Source: Aneurinibacillus uraniidurans
GTDB lineage: Bacteria > Bacillota > Bacilli > Aneurinibacillales > Aneurinibacillaceae
Assembly (NCBI RefSeq): GCF_028471905.1
Contig: NZ_CP116902.1
Location: 2,764,501 to 2,828,500 of the forward strand
DNA length: 64,000 nt
Direction of reading: 5' to 3'
Part shown: in pieces, positions 7,192-32,648 of the stretch
How positions within the stretch are numbered: the stretch's first letter is position 1
Layout of the letters: every line of letters starts with the position of its first letter
Translations under genes and position numbers: made by a program
The notes under the pieces: generated by a model
What the model saw: only the letters and a program-made list of their open reading frames with translations
The model's database searches: none
Told to the model about the DNA's origin: nothing

Positions 7192-8700
7192 TTGCTACAT
7201 GAAAAAATAAACGGGCTTCATTTCGGTAATTTTTATCTTACTCATTCTAAACCAGAAAACACGGCCCTTATCTATCACGATCAGACGATTACATACGGAG
7301 AACTTCGCACAACCGTTGAAAAATATGCTTCCTGCCTGCATGCATCTGGTATTCGTGCAGGTGACGTAGTAGCATTAAGCTGCTATAACACACCTGAGTT
7401 CATTTATAGCTATCTTGCAATTACCCGCCTTGGGGCAATTGTGGTCCCGCTAAATTTGACGCTGACCATAGACGAGCTTACATACATTCTGCACGATTCC
7501 GGTGCTAAAGCGTTGTTCATTCACGAAAAAATTCTTGGTAAATTATCTGTCTCAGCCGAACAGCTTCAGGCACAATTCGGATTACAAGAGGTGCTTGTGA
7601 TCGATGAAGCATTATCCACTCGCACACATGCAACAGCTACAATTGAACTTCCGGAAATCAACCCTAAAGCAATCGCTACGCTTCTGTATACATCAGGTAC
7701 AACAGGTAAGCCAAAAGGTGCCATGCTCAGCCATGAAAACATAATCGCCGACACCGTAGCCTGCACAGATGTTCTCGACCTGACAGCGCAAGATGTCTTT
7801 ATGTGTGTATTGCCGATGTTCCACTCCTTCGGCTTTACCACATCCGTTCTGCTTCCGCTTTACGCAGGTTCTGCTATTGTCATTCATGAAGCGTTCCATC
7901 CAAAGGAGATCATGCACTCTTTGATTTCGCGTCATATATCAGTATTTTGCGGCGTACCGGCTATGTTTGTCGTTCTCGCCCAGGCACTAAAAGAAGGCAA
8001 AGCCAGCTTCCCTTCTCTGCGGGTAGCCGTTTCTGGCGGTGCACCACTGCCGGTTGAAATTTTGAATGTATTTAATCACCAGTACAATATCCCACTCATG
8101 GAAGGCTATGGACTAACAGAAGCGTCTCCAGTTGTATGCTTCAACCCGTTACACGGCGAGAAAAAGCCTGGCTCTGTCGGACTCCCTCTTACCGGTGTAG
8201 AAGTACGTATTGCTGATGAGCAGGGAAACAGCCTGGAAACGGACCAGGTGGGCGAGATTCTCGTACGTGGACTAAATGTCATGCAGGGCTACCTGAATAT
8301 GCCAGAAGCAACAGCAAATACGATCGTGGATGGCTGGCTCCATACAGGAGATATTGGCTTCATCGATCGTGATGGATATGTATTTATCGTGGACCGAAAA
8401 AAGGATCTGATTATTACACGTGGTCTAAACGTCTATCCACGTGAAATTGAAGAAGTACTCTATAAACATCCCGCTGTTCTCGAAGCCGCAGTTATCGGCA
8501 TTCCCGATCCGGTCAAAGGAGAAGTCGTCAAAGCTTTCATCGTACCAAAGCCTGGCGAAACTCTCGACCGTAGGACCGTGCTGGATTTCCTGAAACCGCA
8601 GTTAGCCACATACAAAATGCCGCGCTTCGTGGAGATCACCGAGCAGCTACCGAAAAACGCAGCTGGTAAAATTCTAAAAAAAGAATTGCGTAAGCAGTAG
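7192..8700 (+). CDS. lcfB: Fatty acyl-CoA synthetase (AMP-forming), LcfB-like
   Basis: This 502-residue enzyme has the ANL-superfamily AMP motif YTSGTTGKPKG near residues 164-174, the GYGLTEASP block, the TGDIG motif and the C-terminal lysine region PKNAAGKILKK. It activates a fatty acid with ATP and CoA. Length and order of motifs fit the 500-residue long-chain ligases such as B. subtilis LcfB (YhfL); chain-length preference cannot be read from the sequence. The start is TTG at 7192, chosen because AAAGGAGG lies nine bases upstream. It appears to be monocistronic and converges on a membrane protein gene. Confidence 0.88.
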   Translation: MLHEKINGLHFGNFYLTHSKPENTALIYHDQTITYGELRTTVEKYASCLHASGIRAGDVVALSCYNTPEFIYSYLAITRLGAIVVPLNLTLTIDELTYILHDSGAKALFIHEKILGKLSVSAEQLQAQFGLQEVLVIDEALSTRTHATATIELPEINPKAIATLLYTSGTTGKPKGAMLSHENIIADTVACTDVLDLTAQDVFMCVLPMFHSFGFTTSVLLPLYAGSAIVIHEAFHPKEIMHSLISRHISVFCGVPAMFVVLAQALKEGKASFPSLRVAVSGGAPLPVEILNVFNHQYNIPLMEGYGLTEASPVVCFNPLHGEKKPGSVGLPLTGVEVRIADEQGNSLETDQVGEILVRGLNVMQGYLNMPEATANTIVDGWLHTGDIGFIDRDGYVFIVDRKKDLIITRGLNVYPREIEEVLYKHPAVLEAAVIGIPDPVKGEVVKAFIVPKPGETLDRRTVLDFLKPQLATYKMPRFVEITEQLPKNAAGKILKKELRKQ

Positions 8701-8707
8701 ACTCGTC

Positions 8708-9427
8708 TCACCCAAGCGCATGAATAATGACAAATAGAAGAATCGCTACAACAAGCAGCACAAATGGATTGTTTCGTCTATACACACCTGGCGTATACAG
8801 ACTTGCTCGCATATAAAAAATAAGCAAACAAACAAAGGCTCCAATACCTGCTACAAGATGGCGATCCCACTCTTGTATAACCCGAAGCATAATGCCACCA
8901 TGAAGGGCAACCACGGCGATAGAAAGTAGCATAAAGAACGGAAGTGCCTGAAGGCGTGACCGCTGCAGGCGTCCGCTAAGCATAAACAATCCATACGGAA
9001 TAAACGTGCAGAGAAGCGCAAAATATCCGCTTCCGATGCCAAATAAATAGCCAGGGGAAATGGAGGAATCGCCGTCTGTATGCAATGTAGGCGGCGATTC
9101 CTGTTTCGGTTCCCCGTGTGTTGTTTCCTGCTTGGCAGAAGACGGTGTTGCAGGGGCTGTGCCTGCTTCATGGCTGCCCGTTGAAGGAGTTCCCCCCGAG
9201 CCTGTCTCTACTTTAGAGACAGGCTTTTCTTCCACTACCGCAGGCTGTAAAGCCCCCTCCTCTTTTGGATTATGCTCTTCCGCTCCGCCTGCTCTCGCCT
9301 CCTTATTTACTACTTGTTCATCACTTTTATATCCAGCAGTCGGGCTGGTAACTAACAAAAAAAGCAACAGACTAAACATCACAATACCCATTAGCAAGAT
9401 AAACCAGACAATGTTGCGTACCCACAT
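8708..9427 (-). CDS. Uncharacterised four-segment membrane protein with Pro/Ser/Thr-rich loop
   Basis: About 239 residues. An N-terminal membrane segment (WVRNIVWFILLMGIVMFSLL region) is followed by a roughly 100-residue low-complexity acidic, Pro/Thr/Gly-rich stretch, then three or four further membrane segments in the C-terminal half. I do not recognise the family. The ATG at 9427 has AAAGGAG eleven bases upstream; an ATG at 9451 would add eight residues. The stop is seven bases from the stop of the convergent acyl-CoA ligase gene. Confidence 0.7.
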   Translation of the reverse strand: MWVRNIVWFILLMGIVMFSLLLFLLVTSPTAGYKSDEQVVNKEARAGGAEEHNPKEEGALQPAVVEEKPVSKVETGSGGTPSTGSHEAGTAPATPSSAKQETTHGEPKQESPPTLHTDGDSSISPGYLFGIGSGYFALLCTFIPYGLFMLSGRLQRSRLQALPFFMLLSIAVVALHGGIMLRVIQEWDRHLVAGIGAFVCLLIFYMRASLYTPGVYRRNNPFVLLVVAILLFVIIHALG

Positions 9428-26722: not shown

Positions 26723-27439
26723 ATGCAGTTTACAAGTTATGAACAGGTTGAACAAAAAATCTGGGAGATCGTAGAAGAAGAAATTATTCAGGGAGATTTC
26801 ATGCAGTCCCTGCTTGCAGGCGAATGGACACCTCTTCAGGTGCGCGAGTTCGCTCTGCAATATAGCTACTACAGCCGCAATTTCCCTCGCGTACTTGGTG
26901 CAGCTGTAGCAGCGGTGGAACCCGAAGACGACTGGTGGGTTCCACTTGTTGATAATTTATGGGACGAGGGTGGACGCGGCAATCCCGCTCATTATCACTC
27001 TCTCCTCTACCATACTTTTCTTACAACCGCTGCTCCAGATGTTCCGACGAACGAAAAATACGTTCCTGATTATCCAGTAGCGCAAGCCGCAAAAGAAGCG
27101 GTAACGTCCTTCCTGCTCTTTTTGCGTCATGCCACATCACTCGAAGCAATGGCGTCGATCGGATTTGGCTCCGAGCTGTTTGCAGGTAAAGTAATGGGCT
27201 TGATTGGAGAAGGCCTGCAGCATCCAAATTACAATAAAGATCGCAAACTTGATGTAACATTCTGGACGGTTCATGCTGATGAACATGAACCACGTCACTA
27301 TCAGCTGTGCAAAAATATCTTAACACGCTTCACATCGCCACAGGAACTTGAACATATGTACCGGGCTGGCGCGTACATTACGCGTTCGGAAGCACGCTTC
27401 TATCAGGGATTGTACGAACGTATGAAAAGTCTCCTCTAA
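26723..27439 (+). CDS. Haem-oxygenase-fold iron enzyme (TenA/PqqC/CADD-like)
   Basis: The 238-residue all-helical protein resembles the iron-containing redox enzyme family that shares the TenA/PqqC fold. Candidate metal ligands are Glu in NLWDEGG (about 80), the two His of the following HYHSLLYH, Glu in GFGSEL and the HADEHEPRH cluster near 194-202. Related proteins include CADD and the diiron decarboxylase/oxygenase UndA-SznF group. Substrate unknown. TenA thiaminase itself is less likely because the active-site Cys pattern is absent. AGGAGGATG precedes the ATG. Confidence 0.78.
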   Translation: MQFTSYEQVEQKIWEIVEEEIIQGDFMQSLLAGEWTPLQVREFALQYSYYSRNFPRVLGAAVAAVEPEDDWWVPLVDNLWDEGGRGNPAHYHSLLYHTFLTTAAPDVPTNEKYVPDYPVAQAAKEAVTSFLLFLRHATSLEAMASIGFGSELFAGKVMGLIGEGLQHPNYNKDRKLDVTFWTVHADEHEPRHYQLCKNILTRFTSPQELEHMYRAGAYITRSEARFYQGLYERMKSLL

Positions 27440-27567
27440 TATATGCCAAAGGATACGCCAAAACGCGTATCCTTTCTTTATGCATATTTAAGCGTTTACT
27501 TTCTCTCCTAGTACCGCTATTATACCGAATAGAGAGAATATTTTTGCTAATGAAAAGAGGGGACATC

Positions 27568-28503
27568 GTGGAAATTTCAACTGTTGTGTCATCCATCGCT
27601 GTTATGGCCGCCATGATTGTGATCGGTGCGCTGCTTACCCGAACCGTTCCATTTACGGTTGAGCGAAGACAGCTACTTATGGCTATTATTATTAATGTTG
27701 CCATGCCATGTATTATTTTTCATGGCATTTTTCAAACAAAAGTCGATCAAGATTTTTTGGCTCTTGTTCTACTTACATTTGTCTGTTCGGTTATTCTAAA
27801 TAGTCTTGGAGTGGGACTTGGCTTTCTGTCTGCTCGTGCTGCTCGCATGACACCGGATAAGGCACGCGAAATTGCACTCCTATCTGGTCTTGGCAATACT
27901 GGATTTATTGGTATCCCACTTTGCTCTGCTATTTTCGGACCTAAAGGCGCGTTACTAGCTGCAATTTTTGATGCAGGACTTGATTTTACGATCTGGACGC
28001 TTGGCGTTATGATCCTTCAGCCTCATGTACGCATTAGCCTACGATCCTTGCGTGAACTCGTGAATATTCCTATGATCGCCATTTTTGTAGGGATGATCAT
28101 TGCCATTTTAAATCTTTCACCACCGCCCGTTGTGGCTCATCTAACAGAATCACTGGCGAATCTCGCTTCCCCGCTTGCAATGATGTATATCGGGATGCTT
28201 ATTCCAACACTTATTAAGAAGAAAACACCTGCGATCGGACATATCAGCATGCCACTTGCTCTCAAACTGTTTATTTTCCCGGTATGCTGTGCACTACTAC
28301 TTAAAATTATCCCGCTTCCGGTCGAAGTTGTTCATACTATTATTGTACAGACCGCTATGCCTTCCCTTACGCTCGCTTCCATTTTATTTGCCCGTTATTC
28401 GGCAGATGAAGAATACGGAGCAACGATGACAGTATTTTCTACATTATTATCCATTCCAACGATTCCACTTATGACTGCATTTGGATTTTATTTACTTCAA
28501 TAA
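27568..28503 (+). CDS. AEC (auxin efflux carrier) family transporter
   Basis: The roughly 311-residue protein has about ten membrane segments in two halves and the family's conserved NVAMPCIIF and GNTGFIGIPL blocks. Bacterial AEC members export or exchange malate, malonate and other carboxylates; cargo here is unknown. GTG at 27568 is preferred because AAGAGGGG lies five to six bases upstream; an ATG at 27550 overlaps that site. A terminator follows directly. Confidence 0.88.
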   Translation: MEISTVVSSIAVMAAMIVIGALLTRTVPFTVERRQLLMAIIINVAMPCIIFHGIFQTKVDQDFLALVLLTFVCSVILNSLGVGLGFLSARAARMTPDKAREIALLSGLGNTGFIGIPLCSAIFGPKGALLAAIFDAGLDFTIWTLGVMILQPHVRISLRSLRELVNIPMIAIFVGMIIAILNLSPPPVVAHLTESLANLASPLAMMYIGMLIPTLIKKKTPAIGHISMPLALKLFIFPVCCALLLKIIPLPVEVVHTIIVQTAMPSLTLASILFARYSADEEYGATMTVFSTLLSIPTIPLMTAFGFYLLQ

Positions 28504-28518
28504 CTATAACCGCATACT

Positions 28519-28560
28519 ACAACAGCCTCCTGTGATTCAGGAGGCTGTTGTAACTTATTT
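28519..28560 (+). terminator. Terminator of the AEC transporter gene
   Basis: ACAACAGCCTCCTG pairs perfectly with CAGGAGGCTGTTGT across a five-base loop, followed by AACTTATTTTA. Confidence 0.75.
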
Positions 28561-28647: not shown

Positions 28648-30042
28648 ATGATGGGTTGTCCGTTTAAGGGGTTATTTGGAGATGAAAAAGGAGCCATCAG
28701 TTTTTTTAAAGGTGGTAACAAAGTAGAAGCCGGACAGACGCAGGCAGCGCATACATCTGGTACCTCCCTTTCTATTACCCCAGATGTATCCCGTTCTATT
28801 AGAGAACTCAAAGAAAGCTCTGAAAGTTCCAAAGCTCAATTTGTAGGTTTAAGCGAATCGGATCTGCAGCGTCTCGTTTCTCTGCGCCCCATTTTCGAGA
28901 AAAACGTCGCAGGCATTGTAAATACATTTTATGAGAAACTTTCACAAGTTCCAGCTCTGATGACAATCATCAGCAACCATAGTTCTGTCGAGAAACTTCG
29001 CCAAACACTAGAGCGCTATCTGCTTGATATGACATCAGGAGATATCGGTAAAGACTATATCGTTCGCCGGAAAATTATCGGCAGTGTACATAACCGTATT
29101 AACCTGTTCCCCGAATGGTATATCGGAGCGTATACGCTCATTCAAAATGAGGTATTGACCATGTTACTCCGTGAGCTTCCACTTGACGAAGCCCATCAGT
29201 CGTTTCTTTCATTCCAGAAACTTTGTTCTTTTGATATGCAGATTGCAATTGCTACATATATCGATTCGTACACTTCATCCATGATGCGCCTCAATGAAAT
29301 CGAACGCATTCAGCATCGCCTCAACGAATCATCCGAGATGCTTGTGGCAACCGCTGAAGAAACAAGTGCATCCATCGGCGAAAAAGAAGAGCATGTCTCC
29401 CAAATGCTTGAAGGAACACGCGATATTCAAAGCAGCTCACTTCAAATGGTAGACGATGTTGAAGGTGGAAAAGTCGAGATTTCAAATGCCTTGAAAGAAA
29501 TTGATCTTATCGTTGAAATTATGGACGAAACGCGTGTCCGCTCTAAAGAACTCATCGAAAGCTCAAATAAAATCGGCGAAATCGTTCAGGTTATCCATGC
29601 GATCTCTAATAAAACAAACGTTCTATCCTTGAATGCAAGCATCGAGGCGGCACGCGCAGGGGAACATGGACGCGGATTTACCGTTGTAGCAAAAGAAGTT
29701 CGTAATCTTGCCATGCAAACCCAGGCAGCACTTGACCATATTCACGAACAAATCTCTATGGTACAAAATAACGTCACATCATTTGAGAACTCATTTGAAC
29801 AAATCGCTCGCCAAACAAGCCGCTTCCGTGAGATTAACACCGCAATTATGAGCATTATGGACAATTCATCTATCCAGGTTCGTTCCAATAGTGAGAAAAT
29901 CCAACGGGTGGGTAGCTATATTCTTGATTTCCAGCAGACATTCGATGAAATCTCGACTGCTTCGGAACAAGTAGCCAAAATGGCGGAAGAACTAAGCATG
30001 CTCAGCAATCAGCTTAATGATAAATTCAACATCAATAAATAA
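28648..30042 (+). CDS. hemAT: Globin-coupled chemotaxis-type transducer (HemAT)
   Basis: The 464-residue soluble protein joins a sensor globin (about 65-215) to a methyl-accepting signalling domain. In the globin, proximal His148 lies in GSVHNRINLFPEWYIGAY and Tyr95 (B10) is present, both as in B. subtilis HemAT. The signalling tip LNASIEAARAGEHGRGF lies at about 328-344. There is no membrane segment. An extra 60-residue N-terminal tail starts MMGCPFKG. HemAT senses oxygen for aerotaxis, but the downstream genes here are partner-switching proteins, so its output may be different. A terminator separates it from the AEC gene. Confidence 0.93.
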   Translation: MMGCPFKGLFGDEKGAISFFKGGNKVEAGQTQAAHTSGTSLSITPDVSRSIRELKESSESSKAQFVGLSESDLQRLVSLRPIFEKNVAGIVNTFYEKLSQVPALMTIISNHSSVEKLRQTLERYLLDMTSGDIGKDYIVRRKIIGSVHNRINLFPEWYIGAYTLIQNEVLTMLLRELPLDEAHQSFLSFQKLCSFDMQIAIATYIDSYTSSMMRLNEIERIQHRLNESSEMLVATAEETSASIGEKEEHVSQMLEGTRDIQSSSLQMVDDVEGGKVEISNALKEIDLIVEIMDETRVRSKELIESSNKIGEIVQVIHAISNKTNVLSLNASIEAARAGEHGRGFTVVAKEVRNLAMQTQAALDHIHEQISMVQNNVTSFENSFEQIARQTSRFREINTAIMSIMDNSSIQVRSNSEKIQRVGSYILDFQQTFDEISTASEQVAKMAEELSMLSNQLNDKFNINK

Positions 30043-30087
30043 GCTCGTCCATAGCAACGAAATACAGGGCATAGGTGGGAGCATTCG

Positions 30088-30396
30088 ATGAATACAAAAA
30101 AATTCTCATATGAAGGCCGTCACTTCGCTTCCTTACAAGAAATGACCGAAGTGCTGCTGCATGAAGTAAATGAGCAAATCATCCGCATGGATATGGGGGT
30201 CATCAAAAACATTCCAGAAAATCGGAATTATAGTAAATGGCGCCTGCTTCAACTTCAGTTTTACTTTGCTGATACAGTTCCAGAAGAATACCGCTCCACA
30301 TACAATTCACTCTGGAGCCAACTGTATCGCTTAGAGCACCAGGATACGTTCCGTCATCCGTATCTAAAACTTCTTCTGGAACAGTTGCATGCGTAA
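30088..30396 (+). CDS. Uncharacterised 102-residue protein in the HemAT-partner-switch operon
   Basis: The product is small, soluble and helical, with many charged and aromatic residues and no recognised motif. A GGTGGGAG site precedes the ATG. It starts 45 bases after hemAT and its last codons overlap the next gene, the RsbW-like kinase, by eight bases. The tight packing between a sensor and an anti-sigma-like kinase suggests it connects the two or is the kinase's partner, but no function can be assigned from sequence. Confidence 0.75.
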   Translation: MNTKKFSYEGRHFASLQEMTEVLLHEVNEQIIRMDMGVIKNIPENRNYSKWRLLQLQFYFADTVPEEYRSTYNSLWSQLYRLEHQDTFRHPYLKLLLEQLHA

Positions 30397-30790
30397 CTAT
30401 GAATTTTCCTGTCTGAATGAACAAAATCTGAAGAGTTATGTGGATCAGATTTTGTTCGATCTACATACTGATCTGGACATCACAGAAGAAAGTTTGATTC
30501 ACTACTCACTCTATCTTGCCATCTGGGAGATTCTTTTGAATATCATCAGCCATAATCACTCCCAGATCGATCACTACGTATTCGTCCGCATTAACTGGAC
30601 AGAGAGCGAGATTATGATTCAAATCGAAGATCCAGACGGGGGCTTTGATTGGAAGACATGCCTTTTGGCTGATCTTCCTACTCCAGATCAGTCAAGAGGC
30701 AGGGGATTATTCATTGTAAAAACAATTAGCAAGGAATTTTCGTTTGAAGACAACGGCAAAATCGCTCATGTTCTCTTTGATCGTCCGTAA
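30389..30790 (+). CDS. RsbW/SpoIIAB-like serine kinase (HATPase_c)
   Basis: The 133-residue protein is a lone GHKL ATPase domain of anti-sigma-factor size. The N box has Glu47 and Asn51 (WEILLNIISH), the G1 box is EDPDGGFD (80-87) and the G2 box SRGRGLFIV (102-110). Such kinases phosphorylate a STAS antagonist on Ser and hold a sigma factor or other target. The STAS gene follows 39 bases downstream. No sigma factor is adjacent, so the output may be a different protein. The start overlaps the upstream gene and lacks a strong ribosome site, suggesting coupling. Confidence 0.88.
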   Translation: MRNYEFSCLNEQNLKSYVDQILFDLHTDLDITEESLIHYSLYLAIWEILLNIISHNHSQIDHYVFVRINWTESEIMIQIEDPDGGFDWKTCLLADLPTPDQSRGRGLFIVKTISKEFSFEDNGKIAHVLFDRP

Positions 30791-30829
30791 GAAGTTTCTA
30801 TACGTAATTTAATAAAAGGAGCCTACCTT

Positions 30830-31129
30830 ATGATTAATTACTCAATTCAAGCGCATGAAGCAACATTTGAGTTCAAAGAAGATATCAACTTTGAAACTGT
30901 GCGCCAGCTTGAAACAAAAATTCGGGAAATTCCTCTTCCCAAAACAGTATCTCATCTGATTATTAATCTTCAGCGCGTTAAATTTATTGATAGCACCGGT
31001 GTGGGATTTTTAATTAGTTGGATTCATCCCCTTACCTCCCACCATCGCGTTACGGTTATTAATACAAGCGTCCCTGTTAAAAACATTTTACAAATCTGCA
31101 AGCTTGATAGCCTTGTAGAAATCGTATAA
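30830..31129 (+). CDS. STAS-domain anti-anti-sigma factor-like protein
   Basis: The 99-residue protein is a single STAS domain. The phosphorylatable Ser55 lies in FIDSTGVGF, the canonical DSTG site used by SpoIIAA and RsbV. It should be phosphorylated by the kinase encoded just upstream and dephosphorylated by a PP2C phosphatase such as the one encoded convergently at 31176-32648. AAAAGGAG precedes the ATG. Last gene of the operon. Confidence 0.92.
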   Translation: MINYSIQAHEATFEFKEDINFETVRQLETKIREIPLPKTVSHLIINLQRVKFIDSTGVGFLISWIHPLTSHHRVTVINTSVPVKNILQICKLDSLVEIV

Positions 31130-31164
31130 AGAAAAGGCATGCACCGAAGGCATGCCTTTTCTTT
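31128..31164. terminator. Bidirectional terminator between the STAS and LOV-phosphatase genes
   Basis: AAAGAAAAGGCATGC (31128-31142) pairs perfectly with GCATGCCTTTTCTTT (31150-31164); A and T runs on both sides suit either direction. Confidence 0.85.
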
Positions 31165-31175
31165 ATACGCATCAA

Positions 31176-32648
31176 TTACCGAAGAGTAATCGCTACTAGA
31201 CAAATATCATCCTCGATCCGTCCATCGTTAAATAGCTCAACCGCGTCCTCAATCACCTTACCTGTTTCATGATCATGATACTCCTGTAAAAAATCAGCAA
31301 GACGGGTGATATTCTGAAAAGACGACTCTCCCTTTCTCTCAATTAATCCATCTGTATATAAAAAGATTCGTATCGGCCCCTCATACGATAGAACACCTTT
31401 CTCCACTGGCACATTAGGTACTAATCCAATTGGAAGTCCACCTTCATTGAGCAAAAGAGGTGCATTGCCAGCGCTACAAAGCAAACCAGGAGGATGCCCA
31501 GCGTTCACATATTCAATCGTCCGCTCTTTTGTATTCACAACGATATATAAGCCGGTAAAGTAATACGACTGTATCTGACTCTGCGACTGATATAAATCGT
31601 TCATATGCCGGTTCAATTCTTTCATTACCCGCACCGGATCAACGAGACGGGTAATCAACCCCTGAAGTAACGAGCGAATCGACATACTGATCAAAGAAGC
31701 ACTAATCCCATGTCCCACTACATCAAGCAGCATAATCCCGTATCGATTCTTATCGATCTGATACCAACAATACATGTCACCTGCCAGTTGCTCAGACGGG
31801 ATATACGCTGCCTTTATTTCAATATTGTCTTGCTGAATGGGCAGACTGAGCACACTTTGCTGTACGTGCTTAGCTAGCTCAAGTTCTGACTTGAGTTCCT
31901 GTTCCGCATGCTTACGACGGGTCACATCAATTTGCAGCCCGACAAAATAAATCAATTCGCCTTCATCATCAAAAATCGGGCTAATCGTCAGATCATTCCA
32001 GAATGCACTACCATCCCGACGGTAATTTAATAATTCAGTCGTAATCGACTCTCGTTGCTTAATAGCCCGTCTAATCTGTTTTACCGCTACCGCGTCCGTC
32101 TCTGGCCCCTGAAGAAACCGACAATTACGGCCGACCACTTCATCTACAGAATATCCAGTTAGCGTCTCAAACCCTTTATTAGCAAAAATAACCGGGTTGT
32201 CCGGTAGTCGTGGATCAGAAATGGTGACGCCTGTCATCGTATTAGCAACAGCACTAACGAGATGATCATTCGTCTCCAACGCTTGCAGGAGCTTCTCATG
32301 TGATTCTTTCCGGCTCGTAATATCGTGAAAGTATACACAAAGCCCTTCATCAAACGGTGTAACATGAACCTCAAACCACTGCTTCGTCTCTGGCATATAC
32401 TGCTCGAATTCAATCGGACGCTTTTCATGCACCGCCTTGAAATACTGCGTCTGAAAGGACGGGGCTATCGTATGCGGGATTTCATTCCACATATTTTTCC
32501 CATGAAGCTCATTGCGGCTCGCATGAAAAATACGCTCCGCTTCTCTATTTATGTATATAAACCGCCAATTCCGATCAACGGCGAAAAAAGCTTCCGGAAT
32601 CGAATCCATCATTCTCTCGATTTGCCGGTGCGTCTGTTCACCTTCCAT
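31176..32648 (-). CDS. PAS-LOV-PP2C (SpoIIE-type) blue-light phosphatase
   Basis: Domains in 490 residues: PAS (about 8-112), LOV (130-243), short linker and SpoIIE/RsbU-type PP2C phosphatase (255-490). The LOV core has the photoactive Cys176 in GRNCRFLQG plus the flavin contacts Asn208, Asn218 and Gln239, closely matching B. subtilis YtvA. The phosphatase keeps the metal Asp residues in AGDMY (291), LLDVVGHG (309), YTDG (433) and EDDI (480-481). It should dephosphorylate a STAS protein in response to blue light; the convergent operon encodes one. GGGGGAG precedes the ATG. Confidence 0.93.
   Translation of the reverse strand: MEGEQTHRQIERMMDSIPEAFFAVDRNWRFIYINREAERIFHASRNELHGKNMWNEIPHTIAPSFQTQYFKAVHEKRPIEFEQYMPETKQWFEVHVTPFDEGLCVYFHDITSRKESHEKLLQALETNDHLVSAVANTMTGVTISDPRLPDNPVIFANKGFETLTGYSVDEVVGRNCRFLQGPETDAVAVKQIRRAIKQRESITTELLNYRRDGSAFWNDLTISPIFDDEGELIYFVGLQIDVTRRKHAEQELKSELELAKHVQQSVLSLPIQQDNIEIKAAYIPSEQLAGDMYCWYQIDKNRYGIMLLDVVGHGISASLISMSIRSLLQGLITRLVDPVRVMKELNRHMNDLYQSQSQIQSYYFTGLYIVVNTKERTIEYVNAGHPPGLLCSAGNAPLLLNEGGLPIGLVPNVPVEKGVLSYEGPIRIFLYTDGLIERKGESSFQNITRLADFLQEYHDHETGKVIEDAVELFNDGRIEDDICLVAITLR

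Follow-up and report, generated by a model that had tools for sequence, protein, structure and literature searches.

A predicted Rsb-type partner switch encoded with an oxygen chemoreceptor: a conserved module of Aneurinibacillus uraniidurans and other Bacilli

The 64,000-nucleotide stretch of the Aneurinibacillus uraniidurans genome (a single contig of 3.85 Mb) analysed here, which we call the window, contains a five-gene module in which the parts of an Rsb-type partner switch are encoded together with the oxygen chemoreceptor HemAT. Four genes on the forward strand encode HemAT, a 102-residue protein without an assigned family (X102), an RsbW/SpoIIAB-type serine kinase and a protein consisting only of a STAS domain, and a fifth, for a PAS-LOV-PP2C phosphatase, converges on them from the reverse strand. 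We consider it almost certain that the module is a conserved functional unit. That it works as a partner switch around the oxygen chemoreceptor, with HemAT as its output, is a reading to which we give an even chance.

All five genes were confirmed where the initial annotation had placed them, and Pfam supports its description of the operon. HemAT (28648-30042, + strand, 464 residues), a protoglobin oxygen sensor joined to the signalling domain of a methyl-accepting chemotaxis protein (MCP), is followed after 45 bp by X102 (30088-30396, +), whose end is overlapped by 8 bp by the kinase gene (30389-30790, +, 133 residues, HATPase_c_2). The STAS gene (30830-31129, +, 99 residues) follows after 39 bp, and its presumed phospho-acceptor is Ser55 within a DSTG motif (residues 54-57). 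From this layout the four genes are predicted to be one operon. The phosphatase gene (31176-32648, - strand) encodes 490 residues with a SpoIIE-type PP2C domain.

HemAT, X102, kinase and STAS genes were read together in 18 genomes, that of A. uraniidurans included, and because the set recurs in the 17 others we regard it as more than a chance arrangement. The phosphatase gene lies beside the operon in 16 of the 18, and a contig end intervenes in two. It is split in one record (L040, the same as G010); in Bacillaceae UBA7792 only its probable start precedes the end of the contig, and in G008 the operon reaches a contig end and a LOV-PP2C gene lies near the end of another contig. X102 was found in 10 of 101 genomes and in 13 of 398 Bacilli genomes (own genome counted in both). 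A kinase profile matched 36 of 398 Bacilli genomes at E <= 1e-5, with 11 below 1e-40 and the next at 1.7e-16; they are the 13 X102-bearing genomes with G001 (Aneurinibacillus thermoaerophilus) and G025 taken out, and all 11 carry the four genes in order (X102 of G008 is interrupted by an in-frame stop). Among 15 named loci from one scan, 12 carry operon and phosphatase gene, the remaining three being X102 paralogs without the operon; the 12 comprise three from Aneurinibacillus, seven from Anoxybacillus, and those of UBA7792 and Bacillus ectoiniformans. HemAT adjoins the switch in every module copy read, across three genome-code families (f1, f29 and f37). The initial annotation had named lack of conservation in related genomes as one of two findings that would speak against it; operon and phosphatase gene are conserved in distant Bacillota, and that objection falls away.

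To compare residues, 18 module copies, no two kinases of which are identical, were aligned together with a reduced copy from A. thermoaerophilus. The kinase matches HATPase_c_2 (5.1e-9), and its AlphaFold model (predicted local distance difference test score, pLDDT, 89.0) is nearest in fold to SpoIIAB (Z 15.4, root-mean-square deviation 2.4, 124 residues aligned), Leptospira LvrC (Z 15.2) and RsbW (Z 15.1, deviation 2.0, 112 aligned), the three being tied. Glu47 and Asn51, which we take to be the N-box Glu and Asn of GHKL serine kinases, are present in all 18 copies, as is Gly106; Gly104 and Arg105 are each present in 17 of 18. The STAS protein has a Pfam match of 5.1e-11 and keeps Ser55 in 19 of 19 copies, that of A. 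thermoaerophilus included. With the kinase fold and N-box, a phosphorylatable STAS serine and the PP2C aspartates described below, this is by its predicted parts a module of the RsbVW/SpoIIA type, and the kinase and phosphatase very probably act on the module's own STAS protein.

The phosphatase matches SpoIIE (1.5e-41) and PAS families in Pfam. Its LOV part finds matches among structures of aureochrome, phototropin and YtvA and contains the motif GRNCRFLQ with the adduct Cys176; at 177.5 bits the protein stays below the curated cut-off for YtvA (250 bits). Asp291, Asp309, Asp433, Asp480 and Asp481, presumably metal-binding, are kept in all 15 complete phosphatases, a count that leaves out the UBA7792 (cut), G010 (split) and G008 (lying separately) copies. 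Both Cys176 and the full set of aspartates had been expected by the initial annotation and are present, and blue light probably changes phosphatase activity in A. uraniidurans.

The LOV domain with its Cys occurs in all six complete Aneurinibacillus phosphatases aligned, and the Cys also in G008; in G010 (Aneurinibacillus sp. Ricciae_BoGa-3) it is replaced by Ser, and a frame change splits the gene. Anoxybacillus phosphatases have a receiver domain as input, with a Pfam match in L041 (Response_reg 3.3e-28), one slightly under the threshold in L046 (A. rupiensis, 29.8 bits against a cut-off of 30.2) and comparison by alignment for the remaining copies; the phospho-acceptor Asp is presumed to lie in the LMDICMP stretch, which seven of eight Anoxybacillus-type copies have and A. 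rupiensis has lost. The B. ectoiniformans phosphatase has PAS and SpoIIE domains behind about 160 residues that have no Pfam assignment, and the 173-residue UBA7792 fragment matches no Pfam family. Read by eye, these last two had been taken for receiver-type proteins, an assignment dropped when Pfam gave no receiver in either. With a receiver as input in Anoxybacillus, PAS in B. ectoiniformans and Ser in place of the adduct Cys in G010, blue-light input does not extend to the system as a whole; judged by domain content, it is the Aneurinibacillus-group version of a slot filled differently elsewhere.

In a tree of 37 PP2C domains, 17 of them from module phosphatases, the LOV phosphatases form one clade (96/89), and all 17 fall inside one group of 21 rows (83/89), apart from the RsbU rows. 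The same group holds the MCP/CheA-linked L072, L139 and L140 together with L134, which has a kinase and a STAS-like gene; L139 and L072 branch beside the LOV clade, and several branches are long. As this tree reads, one broad group of PP2C domains has had its input domains exchanged.

A smaller form of the module is found in A. thermoaerophilus (G001), where HemAT (454 residues) and STAS alone occupy the same place, between the transporter and an MFS gene. The reduced module lies at 8630-9116 of locus L173 with the HemAT and STAS frames open. Pfam confirms the STAS protein, which keeps DSTG and shares 60-72% identity with those of five other members of the genus. The roughly 150 bp between the two genes contain a stretch resembling the start of X102 and a frame, NEYRHPYLKNYLITKNKN, that ends in a stop; the frame resembles the X102 C-terminus, with EYRHPYLK identical to several copies. 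At the DNA level, alignment of this remnant with X102 beat the best of 100 shuffles in two of four relatives (52.5 against 41.0 and 52.0 against 45.5). Neither the kinase, searched for by profile at 1e-5, nor a phosphatase homolog, at E <= 1e-15, was found in this genome. Because remnants of X102 persist, we read the absence of kinase and phosphatase as loss. Their joint loss suggests that the two enzymes would act as a pair on one substrate, and because STAS was kept with HemAT after the kinase was lost, the retained STAS seems to have a partner other than the module kinase, most simply HemAT. The initial annotation had the kinase and phosphatase setting the STAS phosphorylation state in response to light: the joint loss speaks for the enzymatic half of that proposal, and the light half would apply only to the Aneurinibacillus group.

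HemAT itself matches Protoglobin (7.4e-38) and MCPsignal (2.2e-29) in Pfam and has no STAS match, the STAS domain being on a separate protein. Tyr95 and His148, both singled out beforehand, align with residues 70 and 123 of the solved HemAT structure 1or4 at a constant offset of 25, and these we take to be the distal Tyr and heme-ligating His of Bacillus subtilis HemAT; both are kept in 19 of 19 aligned copies, those of A. uraniidurans and A. thermoaerophilus included. Each arm of the signalling hairpin is 28 residues shorter than in two transmembrane MCPs that the genome also encodes (counting gaps by eye). A short hairpin as a module-specific trait, marking a separate array, was considered and rejected, HemATs of module-free genomes being similarly short or shorter; the length alignment left out the second HemAT of A. 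uraniidurans. Compared with that second HemAT of the genus, the module HemAT of A. uraniidurans (G000) is better conserved in the C arm against G002, G004 and G006 (84-86% versus 71-76%). This advantage is absent when the globins of G000 and its close relative G005 are compared (91 versus 95), as it is for the C arms of G004 and G002 (82 versus 83), so that evidence for stronger conservation of the module HemAT is weak. The second HemAT (6692-8035 of L176 in G000; L231-L234) has the receptor tip EASRAGGEHGRS in all five genomes read, one residue longer than EAARAGEHGRG.

X102 is predicted to form a beta-hairpin and helices (structure model pLDDT 82.6). Pfam and NCBIfam searches found nothing for it at E <= 0.01, its best sequence match among solved structures is an uninformative E 0.4, and fold searches gave at best E 0.5 with Foldseek and Z 8.4 with VIA, the noise level for helical bundles. 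Two more copies lie outside the module in A. uraniidurans (L030 and L036), and others in G005 (L035, L037) and at L027 and L029; by eye, these paralogs lie near cytochrome-bd-like genes, an MCP, a STAS-like gene, or a sigma-54-type regulator with a two-component system.

Kinases of this type near MCP genes are not confined to the module. The A. uraniidurans genome has 55 MCP matches (E <= 1e-10) and four HATPase_c_2 matches at E <= 1e-7, namely SpoIIAB and three others, all three of which lie close to an MCP gene: the module kinase is two genes from HemAT, and those of L071 and L072 are adjacent to an MCP. The inspection covered these four; one further match (1.4e-6, a 347-residue frame) also exceeds the curated cut-off. 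Assuming about 3,800 genes, the chance of a kinase lying within two genes of an MCP is roughly 6% for each. Across 11 genomes of the family, 52 HATPase_c_2 matches were found at the same threshold, from which 11 SpoIIAB, eight RsbW and seven RsbT were set aside by position, along with three uninspected frames of more than 500 residues. Fifteen of the 23 left are within three genes of an MCP (six in the HemAT module and nine others) and eight are not, these eight including six copies of one RsbT-like orphan locus (L221, L224-L227 and L229) near which no MCP, STAS or PP2C gene was seen and which has no match in A. uraniidurans at E <= 1e-7.

One such neighbourhood, at about 3.4835-3.4900 Mb in A. 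uraniidurans (L072 with L127), is a Pfam-confirmed CheW-CheA-MCP-kinase-STAS-PAS-PP2C cluster, in which CheA has two CheW-domain stretches and STAS has LNSLSLG instead of DSTG; reading by eye showed no CheY-like gene next to the cluster. At L071 (about 565-568 kb), PAS-PP2C, kinase and MCP genes are consecutive, and similar rows occur in G005 (L142), G007 (L141) and G010 (L218), with a STAS gene after the MCP in L141 and L218. Outside the family, REC-PP2C/kinase/MCP/STAS and PP2C/kinase/STAS/MCP runs were found in G187 and G343, which were taken from the best kinase matches rather than drawn at random; in G031 and G051, an MCP was in view in none of the seven kinase-match neighbourhoods read, and CheA and CheW were present in two.

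HemAT had been cast in the initial annotation as the source of an added oxygen signal. That is one direction only, and HemAT may be a target of the switch rather than, or as well as, a sensor, a role that fits at least equally well because HemAT and STAS survive the loss of the enzymes and other MCP-linked switches exist. Going by protein families and conserved residues, the RsbW-type kinase would phosphorylate Ser55 of STAS and the PP2C phosphatase would strip the phosphate from it, under the control of an exchangeable N-terminal input domain, be it LOV (Aneurinibacillus group), a receiver (Anoxybacillus) or PAS (B. ectoiniformans). Unphosphorylated STAS would then act on HemAT, with X102 as an accessory, and raise or lower receptor signalling, so that light, or another signal in relatives, would tune aerotaxis. 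We put HemAT/X102 as the output, in preference to a sigma factor or some other target, at slightly short of an even chance. More tentative is the broader proposal that the chemoreceptor is the output of a general class of partner switches in this family of Bacillota, linked to HemAT, transmembrane MCPs or CheA/CheW, in which unphosphorylated STAS docks on HemAT/X102 and resets oxygen signalling, inputs are swapped freely and blue light was gained once, in the Aneurinibacillus group.

Several observations weigh against HemAT as the output or against other parts of the main reading. Gene linkage by itself is no proof of binding. G025 has only HemAT and X102, and G192 and G092 have a HemAT without the partner genes, followed (by eye) by the same esterase-like and DEAD-box-like genes as the UBA7792 module. 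The X102 remnant of A. thermoaerophilus scored below the best shuffle in the other two relatives (34.5 against 45.5 and 46.5 against 49.0), and the STAS protein of that species could be acting on an RsbW-like kinase near its sigB-like gene and not on HemAT. Two MCP-linked phosphatases fall among the module ones in the PP2C tree, where a single clade of module phosphatases is neither shown nor rejected (approximately unbiased test, p-AU 0.208). Finally, Asp81 of the G1 box, which we assume contacts adenine as in other GHKL kinases, is replaced by Asn or His in six of eight Aneurinibacillus-group kinases and by Ser in that of UBA7792, and the kinases so altered may be weak or inactive.

The strongest alternative, which we nevertheless consider unlikely, takes both HemAT and LOV as inputs and sees the kinase as an anti-sigma factor or other anti-regulator, freeing an unlinked transcription factor when STAS is dephosphorylated. 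The kinase model is as close to the anti-sigma factors SpoIIAB and RsbW as to anything, and the Che1-linked CrsR/CrsA switch of Shewanella controls RpoS (PMC9855816). None of the 12 matches to the SigB/F/G model in the A. uraniidurans genome, the one kind of sigma factor searched for, lies within the window, as the initial annotation had said of the module's surroundings. Two are above the cut-off, the next reaching 143 bits, and by position they are sigF (beside spoIIAB) and sigG (after a sigE-like match), so that candidate targets are present in the genome, with no sigB-type match to that model. Of 16 other genomes, G005, G009 and the Anoxybacillus genomes G398-G400 show this pattern too. 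In G001-G004, G006-G008, G010 and G025 a third match scores 230-236 bits around the cut-off of 234.35, which only G004 exceeds, and UBA7792 (G401) and B. ectoiniformans (G402) have three matches above it. Rsb-type genes surround the sigma gene in three of four third-match regions read (G002, UBA7792 and B. ectoiniformans, not G025).

Among 13 module genomes tested, then, five have no sigB (A. uraniidurans, G005 and G398-G400) and eight have a sigB-like gene. SigB is, by this distribution, not required for the module, and was set aside as the target of the switch since the module occurs both with and without it. Against the anti-sigma explanation more generally, the three sigB operons read in module genomes have their own separate RsbV- and RsbW-like genes, and the retention of STAS with HemAT after loss of the kinase is unexpected if STAS only antagonises the kinase.

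A switch that controls a different effector, such as a cyclic di-GMP (c-di-GMP) enzyme or another MCP, with HemAT merely co-expressed, seems to us quite improbable. In the SiaABCD system a c-di-GMP enzyme is regulated by way of a STAS protein (PMC9239204), X102 paralogs lie near other genes, and HemAT is found alone in other genomes, but HemAT stands next to the switch in all copies read, in all three genome-code families and even in the reduced A. thermoaerophilus locus. Least probable of the alternatives is that in most Aneurinibacillus-group members the kinase has no catalytic role and serves as a binding protein, the switch operating there by binding alone, as the Asp81 replacements might indicate, given that Asp81 is kept in 11 of 18 kinases (the window, G005, all eight Anoxybacillus-type copies and B. 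ectoiniformans), that the N-box and Gly104-Arg105-Gly106 residues are conserved as counted above, and that Ser55 and the phosphatase aspartates are invariant.

Around the module, a terminator-like hairpin (28518-28552, + strand, a consensus match only) follows the upstream transporter gene and marks the start of module territory. Just upstream (window 26723-28503) are a Haem_oxygenas_2/TENA-like gene and a Mem_trans (AEC-type) transporter gene, and by eye similar TENA-like and transporter genes precede the A. thermoaerophilus HemAT (L173). An inverted repeat between the convergent genes (31129-31163, no strand assigned; arms at about 31129-31142 and 31150-31163), known from reading by eye and not listed by the terminator scan, is a possible two-way terminator. 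The promoter scan returned eight promoter-like sites against 10.6 expected, and no promoter is claimed. The CheW family has six matches in the genome, none of them within the window.

If HemAT is the output, STAS serine phosphorylation would be a gain control for a chemoreceptor besides methylation, and light and oxygen responses would be linked within one small module. The module also offers a clear test of what a partner switch does where the sigma factor is missing. The nearest precedents found for such a role are a genomic study of Campylobacterota, in which a possible effect of a STAS protein on a chemoreceptor was suggested but not proven (PMC9239204), and the link between Che1 and CrsR/CrsA in Shewanella (PMC9855816). 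Among the matches listed in our literature search (titles and abstract starts, with few subscription journals covered), no description of the HemAT-X102-kinase-STAS set was found; HemAT and partner switching were linked only in the Vibrio stressosome work among the relevant matches, and nothing was found on Aneurinibacillus with a LOV domain.

Several known systems share parts of this arrangement. The RsbU/RsbP-RsbV-RsbW and SpoIIE-SpoIIAA-SpoIIAB switches of Bacillus have the same PP2C phosphatase, DSTG-type STAS serine and GHKL serine kinase (fold Z about 15), and PPM phosphatases of this kind have been described as STAS-specific (PMC11418112). Unlike them, the present module has no SigB/F/G-type gene adjacent and no sigB-type match in its genome, its operon includes HemAT and X102, and its phosphatase input is LOV, a receiver or PAS. 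The YtvA-type and LOV-SpoIIE photoreceptors share the LOV sequence with its adduct Cys, and SpoIIE-type phosphatases are named among the effectors of bacterial LOV and BLUF proteins (PMC4844311), whereas here the LOV-PP2C gene lies beside an oxygen-chemoreceptor operon. In the heme-globin stressosome RsbR of Vibrio, a heme globin-type domain likewise feeds oxygen status to a STAS/kinase system (PMC4976288, PMC9237108), but that sensor is part of the STAS protein, whereas here it is fused to an MCP and STAS is separate; a stressosome layout, with the sensor fused to STAS in the same operon, was not found among the focal proteins by Pfam.

Of the published architectures that we found, the closest are the Shewanella Che1 locus, in which an Aer2-type aerotaxis receptor is encoded with an anti-sigma factor antagonist and the CrsR/CrsA switch of RpoS (PMC9855816), and the stage 1 F7 chemosensory clusters, which contain anti-sigma antagonists and a serine phosphatase (PMC7184735). 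Those loci hold cheA, cheW and cheY, none of which is among the five focal genes, and the receptor here is instead the globin HemAT. The module is real and conserved, an uncommon assembly of ordinary parts whose chemistry is that of RsbVW and SpoIIA.

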